Source of the DNA: Haloarcula mannanilytica
GTDB taxonomy: Archaea; Halobacteriota; Halobacteria; Halobacteriales; Haloarculaceae
Assembly (NCBI RefSeq): GCF_005406125.1
Contig: NZ_BIXZ01000001.1
Location: forward strand, 806,001-870,000
DNA: 64,000 nt
Reading direction: 5' to 3'
Part shown: one piece after another, positions 19,703 to 23,333 of the stretch
How the letters are laid out: every line of letters starts with the position of its first letter
Numbering within the stretch: the first letter of the stretch is position 1
The notes under the pieces: generated by a model
Told to the model about the DNA's origin: nothing
What the model saw: the letters and a program-made list of their open reading frames with translations, nothing else
Database searches by the model: none
Translations under genes and position numbers: made by a program

Positions 19703-19765
19703 CAGTCCGAGAGTCAGAAATAGCAACAGCTCAGGGACCGCGAGAGACAGAGAGAAAGAACCGCG

Positions 19766-19957
19766 TTACGCTTCGACGGGGTTGTTCATCTTCCGGGTGA
19801 CGTAGCCGGCGATGCGGTTGCGCACACCCTTCGATTCGATGTTGGTCAGTTCCTCGACGACATCCTTGTTGTGTTCGAAGTCGGCACCGAAGGCGTCGGG
19901 GTATCGCTCCATGAGGAGCGTCCCGGTCTTCTTGACGTAGGCGGGTTTGATTGCCAT
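19766..19957 (-). CDS. rps17e: 30S ribosomal protein S17e
   Basis: Archaeal/eukaryotic-type S17e of 63 residues starting [20 protein letters not shown] and containing [23 protein letters not shown] 19957 agrees with a TATA-like CCTTTTTGA centred 28 bp upstream (19981-19989). A pyrimidine-rich minus-strand stretch after the stop (19739-19762) may terminate it. It follows the DUF447-type gene by 190 bp and probably has its own promoter. Confidence 0.95.
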
Positions 19958-20147
19958 GCGCGCTACTTGCTTGGTCGCACTCAAAAAGGGTTCGGAACAG
20001 ACCCCGCACGCGAACGTTTATCAGGAGGGACGGAACCAACCGCTGCCGTGCGCTGACCGTCGCTGTGGCAGGTCCCGCAGGAGTGTGACACAGCCTGTCA
20101 CTGACTGTGGTGTGTCGCCTGTTCGCCCCCAATTCCGTGTGAAGTTG

Positions 20148-20762
20148 CTACCACTCGGCGTCGACTAGCTTACGAACGCGCTGGAATGCCGCTCGCTCGC
20201 GCTCGCTGCCGGCCGTCTCGACCACGGATTCGAAGTACGCGAGCCGCTCCAGCAGCGTCTCGCGGTCGTAGCTCGGCACGTCCAGCCGCGACGCCGCCAC
20301 CGTTGCCTCGACGACGGCGGCGTGGCCGCGGTTCGTCGTCGGGACGACACGCCGTTCGGCGGCGCTGTCGACAGGATGAAGCGCCCACTCGACCCACTGT
20401 GTATCGCCCTCTGTTCCGGAGTCGCGCTGCTCAACCTCGATCTCAACCCACGCGTCCGCGCTGTCAAGGATTGGCTCGTCCTCTTCGCGGACCGACAGCG
20501 CCGCCTCGACGAAGTCCACCGGGTCGCGCGTGAACTGGACGTAGCCGCCACCACTCTCCCGGAAGTTCCGCCAGGTCCGGGTCCGGCCCCACGTCGTCGC
20601 CGTGGCTGGTCCGTCACCGTCGGGCGCATGGACACCCAGCGCGGCGACGTTCCAGCGCTCGTTTGGCCCCAGCGTGGTGACGACCGTCTCAGTAACGCCG
20701 GAAAGGGCGACGGGCCACGCTGTCTGTGCGTCAGCGCCATGTGGCGGCGAGTCGTCGGTCAC
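20148..20762 (-). CDS. DUF447-family protein (flavoprotein-like)
   Basis: A 204-residue soluble protein. GVTETVVTTLGPNERWNVAALGVH at the start, then RTRTWRNFRESGGGYVQFTRDPVDFVEAAL, match what I recall of DUF447, a flavin-reductase-like beta-barrel family found mainly in methanogens and other archaea, and in methylotrophs. The C-terminal half is helical (YDRETLLERLAYFESVV). Last gene of the cofD operon, overlapping the CitG-like gene by 4 bp. Biochemical role not established; FMN binding is likely from the fold only. Confidence 0.75.
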   Translation of the reverse strand: MTDDSPPHGADAQTAWPVALSGVTETVVTTLGPNERWNVAALGVHAPDGDGPATATTWGRTRTWRNFRESGGGYVQFTRDPVDFVEAALSVREEDEPILDSADAWVEIEVEQRDSGTEGDTQWVEWALHPVDSAAERRVVPTTNRGHAAVVEATVAASRLDVPSYDRETLLERLAYFESVVETAGSERERAAFQRVRKLVDAEW

Positions 20763-21598
20763 ACGTCGAGCCCCCGTTCCAGCGCGACGAACAGCGCGCC
20801 CGCAACCAGGTCAGCGGTCGTTCCGGGGTTGATGTCCCGCTCGACAAACTCCTCGGCGAGCGCCGTCGCATCCTCCTCACCGTCGAGAACGGCCTGTGCC
20901 CGCCGCTGAACCTCCGCGGCAGTATCGCAGTTCTGTCGCGTGACGATGAACGTGTCCGGCTCGTCTGCGAGAAGCTCAATGAACACGTCAGACGCGCGGT
21001 CGGCAACGGGTCCCGACCCATCCAGCAACATCTCGCTGGCCTCGAACACGCGCTCGAAGCCGGACACCCACTCAGCCGCCACGCCGTCGACATCAGCGCT
21101 TTCCGCCATCACGTCGAACAGCGTCAGCTCACGCGCCCGGAGTTCCGGAATCGCGTCGCTCCCGCGGCGAACGTCGAGCGGTTCCAGCCCGTCCGGTGGG
21201 TCGTCAACGGCTACGTCGACGTGCTCGAAGGACCGATAGAACGCCGCCGCGTCGTCGACGGTCGTCTCACGGACCACGGCGTCCACACCAGATGGCGACA
21301 GTCGCCCATCACTCGCTGCGGCCGCCAGCGGCGTGAGTACCAGCAAGGCTCCAAACTGAGTGTTCCCGGCTGATTGGCCAGCCATCCCGTCGACGGCTGT
21401 CTCGAATGCGGGACCGATAGGGTCACCAGCGGCCGCCCGATCCAGTCCCGACCGTACACCCACAGCGCCGGCCATGAAATGCTCGAACCGGAGGTCGTCG
21501 TACTCCCGCTCGCGGTCGACATTGCCGGGCTTTGGCGTGCCGGTGACCTCAAGCAACAGTGCCAGCTGGGCGTTCTGTGCGACCGACCGCTCGCTCAC
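20759..21598 (-). CDS. CitG-like / triphosphoribosyl-dephospho-CoA synthase-family protein
   Basis: The 279 residues start at a GTG whose sequence overlaps the upstream stop as GTGA (21595-21598); an ATG 24 bp earlier is in frame but would overlap by 28 bp. NAQLALLLEVTGTPKPGNVDRE with FEHFMAGA is the CitG signature (ATP-dependent transfer of ribose-5-triphosphate to dephospho-CoA). No citrate lyase or malonate decarboxylase genes are present here, so the true substrate in this operon is probably another nucleotide or cofactor. Sandwiched between DUF447 and the TIM-barrel gene. Confidence 0.82.
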   Translation of the reverse strand: MSERSVAQNAQLALLLEVTGTPKPGNVDREREYDDLRFEHFMAGAVGVRSGLDRAAAGDPIGPAFETAVDGMAGQSAGNTQFGALLVLTPLAAAASDGRLSPSGVDAVVRETTVDDAAAFYRSFEHVDVAVDDPPDGLEPLDVRRGSDAIPELRARELTLFDVMAESADVDGVAAEWVSGFERVFEASEMLLDGSGPVADRASDVFIELLADEPDTFIVTRQNCDTAAEVQRRAQAVLDGEEDATALAEEFVERDINPGTTADLVAGALFVALERGLDV

Positions 21599-22341
21599 GG
21601 GGACACCTCCTGAGCGAACCACTCACTCGTCGCCGTTCGGACGGCGTGGAGCGTTTCGGGGTCGTCGCTCGCCCGCCCGACACTGACCGCGTCCGCGCCG
21701 TATGAGAGGTACTCTCGTGCTGTCTTCCGGCCCCTGACACCGTTGTTCGCAACGACGAACAGGTCGGTGGCACCGGTCACGTCGTCGACGACCGGCTCCG
21801 AGTCCATCGCGTCGATGTGGAACATGTCACCGCCGGCGTCCTCGATGACCTGGGCGACAGCTGGGAGCGAGACTCCATCGAGTTCAGCACGTCCTTTCAC
21901 CGAGACGGTCGCCCCCCTCGACGCCGCAGTTTCCACGAACTCGGCCAGCCGATCCGGTTCCCGGAGTAGTGACTCACCCGCCCCCGCAGCGCACATCTCG
22001 TCCTGTCGGCAGTGGGCGTTGATCTCGATGATGGCGTCGTGGCGCTGACAGACAGCGGCGGCACGCTCGACAGGATCGACTGTCGCACTCCGGACGTTGA
22101 ACGCGGGACGCAACGGCGCGTCGGCAAGCGTAGCCAACTGCTCGTCGATGAACGCAACCGGGTCGTCGGGCAGAAATTCGGAGCGGTCGCGGTCGACCAT
22201 CGCTCGGGCGGCCTCGCGGGTCCGCTCGTCGAGTGCGATACCGCCGAGGAACGCACACCCGACATGAGATTCGACCGCGTGGGCCCACGACGCGTCGGCC
22301 TCGCCGCTCAGACTCGCGAGGGCGACTCGCGGCTCGAACAT
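21595..22341 (-). CDS. TIM-barrel oxidoreductase-like protein (tRNA-dihydrouridine synthase / DHOD-like)
   Basis: A 248-residue TIM-barrel-type protein. It contains AIIEINAHCRQDEMCAAGAG (Cys in the DUS/dihydroorotate-dehydrogenase catalytic-loop position), VSVKGRAEL, GGDMFHIDAM, and a C-terminal phosphate-binding part VVANNGVRG...YGADAVSVGRAS. It lacks the RNA-binding helical domain of true Dus enzymes, so a small-molecule substrate is more likely. It overlaps cofD by one base (TGATG) and the CitG-like gene by four. Often annotated as tRNA-dihydrouridine synthase; I would not trust that. Confidence 0.75.
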   Translation of the reverse strand: MFEPRVALASLSGEADASWAHAVESHVGCAFLGGIALDERTREAARAMVDRDRSEFLPDDPVAFIDEQLATLADAPLRPAFNVRSATVDPVERAAAVCQRHDAIIEINAHCRQDEMCAAGAGESLLREPDRLAEFVETAASRGATVSVKGRAELDGVSLPAVAQVIEDAGGDMFHIDAMDSEPVVDDVTGATDLFVVANNGVRGRKTAREYLSYGADAVSVGRASDDPETLHAVRTATSEWFAQEVSP

Positions 22342-23333
22342 CAGGCCACCTCCGAGAGGGCGGTTTCGACGGCGCGGGCCACCCGTTCGGCATCGGCCTC
22401 CCCGTCGAGAGAGGTGTCGGTTCGGACGACCGGTACGTCAAGCGGCGTCGAATCCGCATCGTCAAGGACGAACGCGTCGGCGAAGGGGTAGGCTTCGCTC
22501 ACGCCCGCAGTGCTTGGCTCCAGCCCCACGCCAGCCATCAGGTCGGCCGCCGGTCCCGAAAATACCGTGTCCTCGATGAACGGCGAAACGGCAACGACGG
22601 ATGTCTCGTGAAGCGCGCGTTCAATCTCGTCGATAGCGAGCATTGGCCCAAGCGAGGTCACTGGGTTCGAGGGGCCGATAACGACCGGGTCATCGAGCGC
22701 CGTCAGGACAGCGTCGGTCGCACCGGCCGCCTCGGACCCTCGAAACTCCACGTCCTCGACCGGCGGCTCGCCGTTCCGGCCGACCCACCACTCCTGGAAG
22801 TGCATCGGGCCGCTCGGCGTATGGATGATGGAAGCCACGGGGTCATCACTCATCGGTAGCAGCGTCCGGTCCAGCCCGAACGCGTCGGCGAGCGTGCGCG
22901 TCACCTCGGTCAGCGTTCGGCCCTCGTCGAGCAGCGAGGTCCGCGTGACGTGGACCGCGCGGTCCCGGTCACCGATATGCATGAACTCCGCGACGCCGGA
23001 AAAGCGCCGCCAGCGAGCGATATCACGCCCGGCTGTCTGTGCGTCGTCGGAGAGGTATCGAGGTCCCGCCTCTAGTCCCGCGGCGTCGGCAAGCCGCGTC
23101 AGTTCGGCGTGTGTCTCGGCGGTGTCGTCGTCGATCCCCCACCACGTCTCTCTGTCGAGGACGCCACCATCCAGAAACAGAACAGTGTCGAGGTCCGGAC
23201 AGACGAGGTGGCCCCCGAGCTCGATATCGTCGCCGGTGTTGGCGACGACAGTCGTCGCCGCCGGCGAAAACACGTCGTCGGCACCGGCGAGAAGCTTCGG
23301 CGTGCCCGTCCCGCCGGCGAGAAACGTCACCAT
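22341..23333 (-). CDS. cofD: 2-phospho-L-lactate transferase (coenzyme F420 biosynthesis)
   Basis: Joins the lactyl phosphate moiety to the deazaflavin FO, making F420-0. The 330 residues open with the family motif [18 protein letters not shown] (4-21), then [19 protein letters not shown] and GIGPSNP-like [15 protein letters not shown]. Leaderless start at 23333 is supported by TTTATAC centred 28 bp upstream. It is the first gene of a four-gene operon with 1-4 bp overlaps. Other F420 genes (cofC, cofE, cofG/H) are not in the window. Confidence 0.95.

Follow-up and report, generated by a model that had tools for sequence, protein, structure and literature searches.

The cofD operon of Haloarcula mannanilytica read as two gene modules, one a candidate for building a methanopterin-type side chain for methionine synthesis

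A four-gene operon headed by cofD was analysed in a stretch of 64,000 nucleotides (contig NZ_BIXZ01000001.1, positions 806,001 to 870,000; hereafter the window) from the haloarchaeon Haloarcula mannanilytica, whose genome comprises 4.2 Mb. The operon is best read as two modules serving the same one-carbon (C1) branch: module 1, with cofD and a Dus-like gene, and module 2, with a CitG-like gene and a DUF447 gene. The partner of module 2, absent from the view of an earlier note made on the window from its letters, is an RFAP-synthase-like gene (RFAPS) located outside the window. On balance, we consider it probable that RFAPS, the CitG-like protein and DUF447 (together, the trio) supply the aryl-ribityl side chain for a pterin of the methanopterin type, and that this pterin takes a methyl group from Mer on to MetE. 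The features concerned are as follows.

22341..23333, minus strand: cofD, 2-phospho-L-lactate transferase (F420 biosynthesis), module 1; TIGR01819
21595..22341, minus strand: Dus-like flavin mononucleotide (FMN) TIM barrel, 248 aa, module 1; PF01207
20759..21598, minus strand: CitG-like protein, 279 aa, module 2, proposed alpha-ribosyl(-phosphate) transferase; PF01874
20148..20762, minus strand: DUF447 FMN split-barrel protein, 204 aa, module 2, proposed FMN-dependent aryl-riboside reductase; PF04289/PF20766
23359..23364, minus strand: TATA-like box TTTATA, 25 bases upstream of the cofD ATG
G000:C1:642160-643107, outside the window: RFAPS; TIGR00144 and core residues

Co-occurrence and adjacency were counted in 145 haloarchaeal genomes (genomes and loci of the collection are cited by G and L numbers where needed). 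CofD was found in 145/145, with one copy in the source genome, the CitG-like gene in 142/145 and the Dus-like gene in 141/145; four genomes yielded no match to the Dus-like gene at the chosen threshold and kept the other three genes. Within the family, DUF447 was present in all nearly complete genomes (46/46). Since cofD adjoins the Dus-like gene in 139/141 genomes, and the Dus-like gene adjoins the CitG-like gene in 118/138, the gene order is not due to chance. Breaks of the operon fall almost always between the Dus-like and the CitG-like gene: the pairs stand apart in about 20 genomes, the cofD-Dus pair of Natrialbaceae-type genomes lies far from the CitG-DUF447 pair, and in G219 and G195 the operon is broken, yet CitG-like and DUF447 are adjacent elsewhere.

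The CitG-like gene is missing from exactly 3/145 genomes, two of one genus (G064, G104) and one of another (G158), and all three are also without DUF447 and RFAPS (TIGR00144), while CofD, the Dus-like gene and the cyclohydrolase Mch are kept. G158 is Halobacterium salinarum, as shown by a 12 kb contig that matches, along its full length and with 100% identity, a DSM 3754 plasmid. Lone absences were encountered in G175 (RFAPS) and G233 (DUF447), both drafts of >150 contigs. At least two separate losses are required by the CofD tree, and where CitG-DUF447 has gone, the genes that flank it in relatives are still present. As ~184 kb separate RFAPS from the operon in the source genome, its co-loss would not be the result of one deletion, if the ancestral spacing was similar. 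A single four-gene F420 pathway was rejected, based on this co-loss and on the adjacency breaks. The earlier note had expected all four genes to act together with CofD, which was not borne out: cofD and the Dus-like gene persist without CitG-like and DUF447, Sulfolobus has the latter two without CofD, and the pairs lie far apart in the Natrialbaceae-type genomes.

RFAPS (beta-RFAP synthase) is the first enzyme of the methanopterin side chain. The source-genome protein passed the TIGR00144 subfamily model (164 bits, cut-off 113.5) with its core motifs kept. Haloarchaeal RFAPS sequences, which scored 165-220 bits against a methanogen profile, keep the core motifs, have several residues common to the bacterial form, and fall into a single clade (support 93/89) that reaches down to Halorutilus salinus (G127). 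As a separate observation, two genomes of the methanogen-side family f14 have a second, fast-evolving RFAPS-like paralogue, located a few kb from CitG-DUF447 (L062:10824-11933, L063:8521-9597); the core positions R114, D133 and W166 are lost in the alignment of four copies (families f14 and f7), and this paralogue may have a new function.

The CitG-like protein is a member of the CitG superfamily (PF01874; 232.5 bits, gathering cut-off 27), and failed the equivalog models of CitG (46.3 bits, cut-off 272.3) and MdcB (43 bits, cut-off 282.35). DUF447 matched both of its domain families (DUF447_N/_C, PF04289 and PF20766; 90.5/63.4 bits). It had been described as an orphan flavin-fold family, which remains apt for its reaction and not for its structure: four homologues are solved, three of them FMN-bound, and the top PDB matches of its model (predicted local distance difference test, pLDDT, 87) are the FMN-bound DUF447 proteins 2iml, 2nr4 and 2ptf. 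No literature linking DUF447 or CitG to methanopterin was found.

In the methanopterin route, RFAPS yields an aryl-C-riboside phosphate, the ribose of which is later reduced to ribitol before an alpha-ribosyl phosphate is added; in the CitG reaction, ATP donates a phosphorylated ribose to a hydroxyl group. The CitG-like protein fits the alpha-ribosyl step because of this similar chemistry, and an FMN protein fits the reduction because DUF447 matches FMN-bound structures. In the pathway that we infer, RFAPS would convert p-aminobenzoate or 4-hydroxybenzoate and phosphoribosyl pyrophosphate (PRPP) to the C-riboside, DUF447 with FMN would turn the ribose ring into ribitol, and the CitG-like protein, by analogy with CitG, would add the alpha-ribosyl phosphate from ATP or PRPP. 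The product would then shuttle the methyl group from the F420-dependent Mer to the split MetE. The link of module 2 to F420 is thus likely to be indirect, via the use of F420 by Mer, and the presumed co-transcription of module 2 with cofD would be explained by this need of Mer for F420.

The connection to methyl transfer was suggested by gene clusters of two lineages. In G207, both copies of CitG-DUF447-RFAPS, the only ones of this genome, are preceded by mer and stand divergent from split metE_N/metE_C; the same six genes occur in G238, with mer-citG-duf447-rfaps divergent from metE_N/metE_C. On a plasmid of Halobellus limi, which belongs to another family, npdG (F420 reductase) is divergent from mer-DUF447-RFAPS-metE_N-metE_C (L267:8164-13800), and this island looks like a portable methionine module. 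Mer passed NF002619 (435 and 420 bits, cut-off 276) and did not pass TIGR03555; MetE_C passed NF003317 (512 bits, cut-off 406). Plasmid MetE_C matches of >60% identity were limited to Natrinema, Haloarcula and Halobellus, and none of the Halobacterium plasmids in the collection carried Mer. The duplicate clusters of G207 are located at L032:3120-8752 and L033:8801-14394, with Mer and MetE 75-85% identical between them. In 73 Halobacteria, split MetE is the only methionine synthase, with methyl-tetrahydrofolate or a different methyl pterin as its predicted donor (PMC7857596).

Beyond haloarchaea, 80 named loci were surveyed, mostly from methanogens, anaerobic methanotrophs and Archaeoglobi. The CitG-like gene was present in 70 of these and, in nearly all, adjoins DUF447 or lies ≤0.2 kb from it, a Bacillota metagenome-assembled genome (MAG) being the clear exception; a Dus-like gene is located upstream of the CitG-like gene in 42 loci. 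Bacteria using tetrahydromethanopterin (H4MPT) have CitG-like, DUF447 and RFAPS gathered in a single cluster, which also holds mch, fhc or fae along with DUF6513 and genes for methanofuran, as found in the Bacillota MAG and on plasmids of Phyllobacterium, Azoarcus and Aquabacterium; the genome scan for bacterial DUF447 yielded mainly archaea, and the bacterial clusters came from plasmid records. The MAG locus (L072:1189-14477) holds fhcD, mch, MfnE-/MfnB-like and DHPS-like genes, DUF447, CitG-like and a very diverged RFAPS. A control set of 14 genomes gave matches to RFAPS and DUF447 in just four, M. jannaschii, M. acetivorans, S. acidocaldarius and Hfx. volcanii, and to CitG in these four and E. 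coli. The search of S. acidocaldarius gave no CofD or Mch match, though the trio is present; the trio is therefore independent of F420 and Mch. The earlier statement that CitG-like and DUF447 relatives occur in methanopterin/C1 clusters was confirmed, as they lie in methylotroph H4MPT clusters and are mutually adjacent in methanogens, and the gene-neighbourhood comparison suggested there revealed a co-occurrence of CitG-like and DUF447 far beyond a few haloarchaea.

Module 1 is best read as belonging to F420 biology. CofD passed the TIGR01819 equivalog (366.1 bits, cut-off 257.45). The Dus-like protein matched PF01207 with 36 bits and stayed under the cut-offs of TIGR00736, the MJ0144 family (112.4 bits, cut-off 218.7), as did its same-operon homologues of Archaeoglobi and methanogens, and of the DusB equivalog, a test for tRNA dihydrouridine synthase (31.1 bits, cut-off 293.3). 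Its 248 aa model consists of the barrel only and stops before the Dus RNA-binding domain, the lack of which had been correctly noticed before. With the AlphaFold model (pLDDT 94), Foldseek gave DusC, dihydroorotate dehydrogenase (DHOD) and dihydropyrimidine dehydrogenase (DPD) as nearest structures, DusC being the best PDB match (E 2e-9). The invariant AHCRQ cysteine and the motifs SVKxR, HxD, NN and GAD, along with the modelled fold, place the protein in the FMN TIM-barrel reductase superfamily, and FMN binding is predicted. The methanogen homologue has a C-terminal TIGR03277 (methanogenesis-marker-9) domain, which the haloarchaeal protein is without; a gene taken to be missing between Dus and CitG in methanogens turned out to be this marker-9 domain of the longer methanogen protein. 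At L053:7427-8380, a marker-9 protein with a shrunken, barely recognisable Dus part is located upstream of CitG-DUF447.

The genes overlap by 1, 4 and 4 bp in the order cofD, Dus-like, CitG-like, DUF447, all on the minus strand, in agreement with the 1-4 bp reported earlier; for the CitG-like gene, the GTG at 21598 was taken as start, not the longer open reading frame start at 21622. The TTTATA upstream of cofD is the sole exact copy within >12 kb, which fits the one promoter claimed for the four genes and an mRNA with little or no leader, judging from the sequence, and this box may drive the whole operon. Located 3' of DUF447 is a short minus-strand gene (window 19731-19960) resembling ribosomal protein S17e, and S17e is annotated as the same neighbour of DUF447 in Natrinema thermotolerans (L269).

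Several findings weigh against the proposed methanopterin-type pathway. The DHPS-like TIGR00284 gave only weak matches in haloarchaea and clear ones in methanogens, which leaves the pterin condensation unexplained, so that FolP or another enzyme would have to act. Mch is kept where the trio is lost, hence the main C1 carrier needs no trio; a dependence of Mch on the trio was rejected on the same ground. Haloarchaeal RFAPS failed the NF040726 equivalog (182.5 bits, cut-off 328), and according to the published curation haloarchaea use tetrahydrofolate, HVO_2628 (RFAPS-like) is judged not to be an RFAP synthase, and its identity to methanogen enzymes is given as 26-31% (PMC8305020). Low identity is a weak ground for denying RFAPS function, because RFAPS of three bacterial H4MPT clusters scored alike against the methanogen profile (163-190 bits; the Bacillota RFAPS only 38) and bacterial RFAPS in such clusters also failed NF040726 (189 and 151). 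In favour of the pathway, the 1.65 of ~2.4 Mb read for H. salinarum showed cofD and dus and neither mer nor metE; over this share of the genome, the absence is suggestive. A MetE-type gene is, however, annotated in other H. salinarum strains, though earlier work cited in the same paper found NRC-1 unable to make methionine (PMC11665356). The wider claim is advanced more tentatively, with a slight leaning against it: that most haloarchaea also make an undescribed methanopterin-type coenzyme, with a side chain from RFAPS, DUF447 and the CitG-like protein, which serves the step from Mer to split MetE and was lost in H. salinarum. Other possible products are a modified folate and a compound that is not a pterin.

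This leads to the alternative that survives best, although we hold it to be unlikely: the trio, repurposed after the switch to folate, would make an RFAP-derived compound other than a pterin carrier, or modify tetrahydrofolate. The missing TIGR00284, the retention of Mch without the trio and the folate use reported in PMC8305020 are all in its favour, whereas the recurrent clustering with Mer and MetE points to methyl transfer. It is improbable that the genes are mere remnants, lost together from reduced genomes by coincidence and brought together on mobile islands likewise. The losing genomes are indeed small (2.1-2.4 Mb) and the islands occur in two lineages only; however, other genomes of 2.2-2.5 Mb (G119, G186, G203, G241) keep all three genes, RFAPS retains its core residues throughout the haloarchaea, and DUF447 is in each of the 46 nearly complete family members.

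FMN split-barrel folds also occur among F420-binding proteins. This fold of DUF447, together with the position behind cofD in an operon common to most haloarchaea, would suit a modification of F420 or a precursor by CitG-like and DUF447, a reading that we rate as slightly less probable still: CofD is in 145/145 haloarchaea and CitG gone from 3, S. acidocaldarius has the trio with no CofD match, the pairs are apart in ~20 genomes, and the bacterial H4MPT clusters are without cofD in the stretches read. Of the cofactors proposed in the earlier note for this non-methanogen, a pterin or deazaflavin or a C1 carrier, the evidence points to a pterin-type C1 carrier, and making of a deazaflavin by CitG-like or DUF447 is unlikely. 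The literal annotation, by which the Dus-like protein would act as tRNA dihydrouridine synthase and the CitG-like one as a CitG for the citrate lyase prosthetic group, has the Pfam names PF01207 and PF01874 on its side and is scarcely credible, with a Dus-like protein of 248 aa, no RNA-binding domain and 31.1 versus 293.3 bits for DusB, and a CitG-like protein at 46.3 versus 272.3; literal CitG or Dus function was rejected, both proteins being far under the equivalog cut-offs.

According to the published view, haloarchaea swapped methanopterin for folate, and their homologues of methanopterin enzymes are now folate-linked or otherwise employed. If the methanopterin-type pathway holds true, haloarchaea would have two C1 carriers, the methyl donor of split MetE would be identified, and CitG-like and DUF447 would become testable candidates for late steps of methanopterin synthesis that are still unassigned. 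Hfx. volcanii is a genetically tractable aerobe for this purpose, and H. salinarum a natural null.

Among known systems, the H4MPT biosynthesis cluster of methylotrophs and methanogens (MptG/RFAPS, CitG-like, DUF447, DUF6513, Orf genes) shares the same families, conserved residues and a link to Mch or Mer. In contrast, haloarchaea are without TIGR00284, their genes lie at two sites, the cofD operon and, far from it, the RFAPS locus, and in two haloarchaeal lineages they accompany split MetE. The methanogen operon of Dus/methanogenesis-marker-9, CitG and DUF447 has the same order of Dus-like, CitG-like and DUF447, whereas the haloarchaeal Dus-like gene is without the marker-9 domain and paired with cofD. 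The Hfx. volcanii folate curation (HVO_2628, HVO_1937; PMC8305020) covers the RFAPS-like gene in question along with Mer and CofD; there, the RFAPS-like protein is not regarded as RFAPS, Mer is judged to act on folate, and the main text is without CitG-like and DUF447. In the work on split MetE (PMC7857596), the same two adjacent halves were described in haloarchaea with a methyl pterin as predicted donor; the methyl carrier is unspecified there, whereas the genes likely responsible for its biosynthesis are named here.

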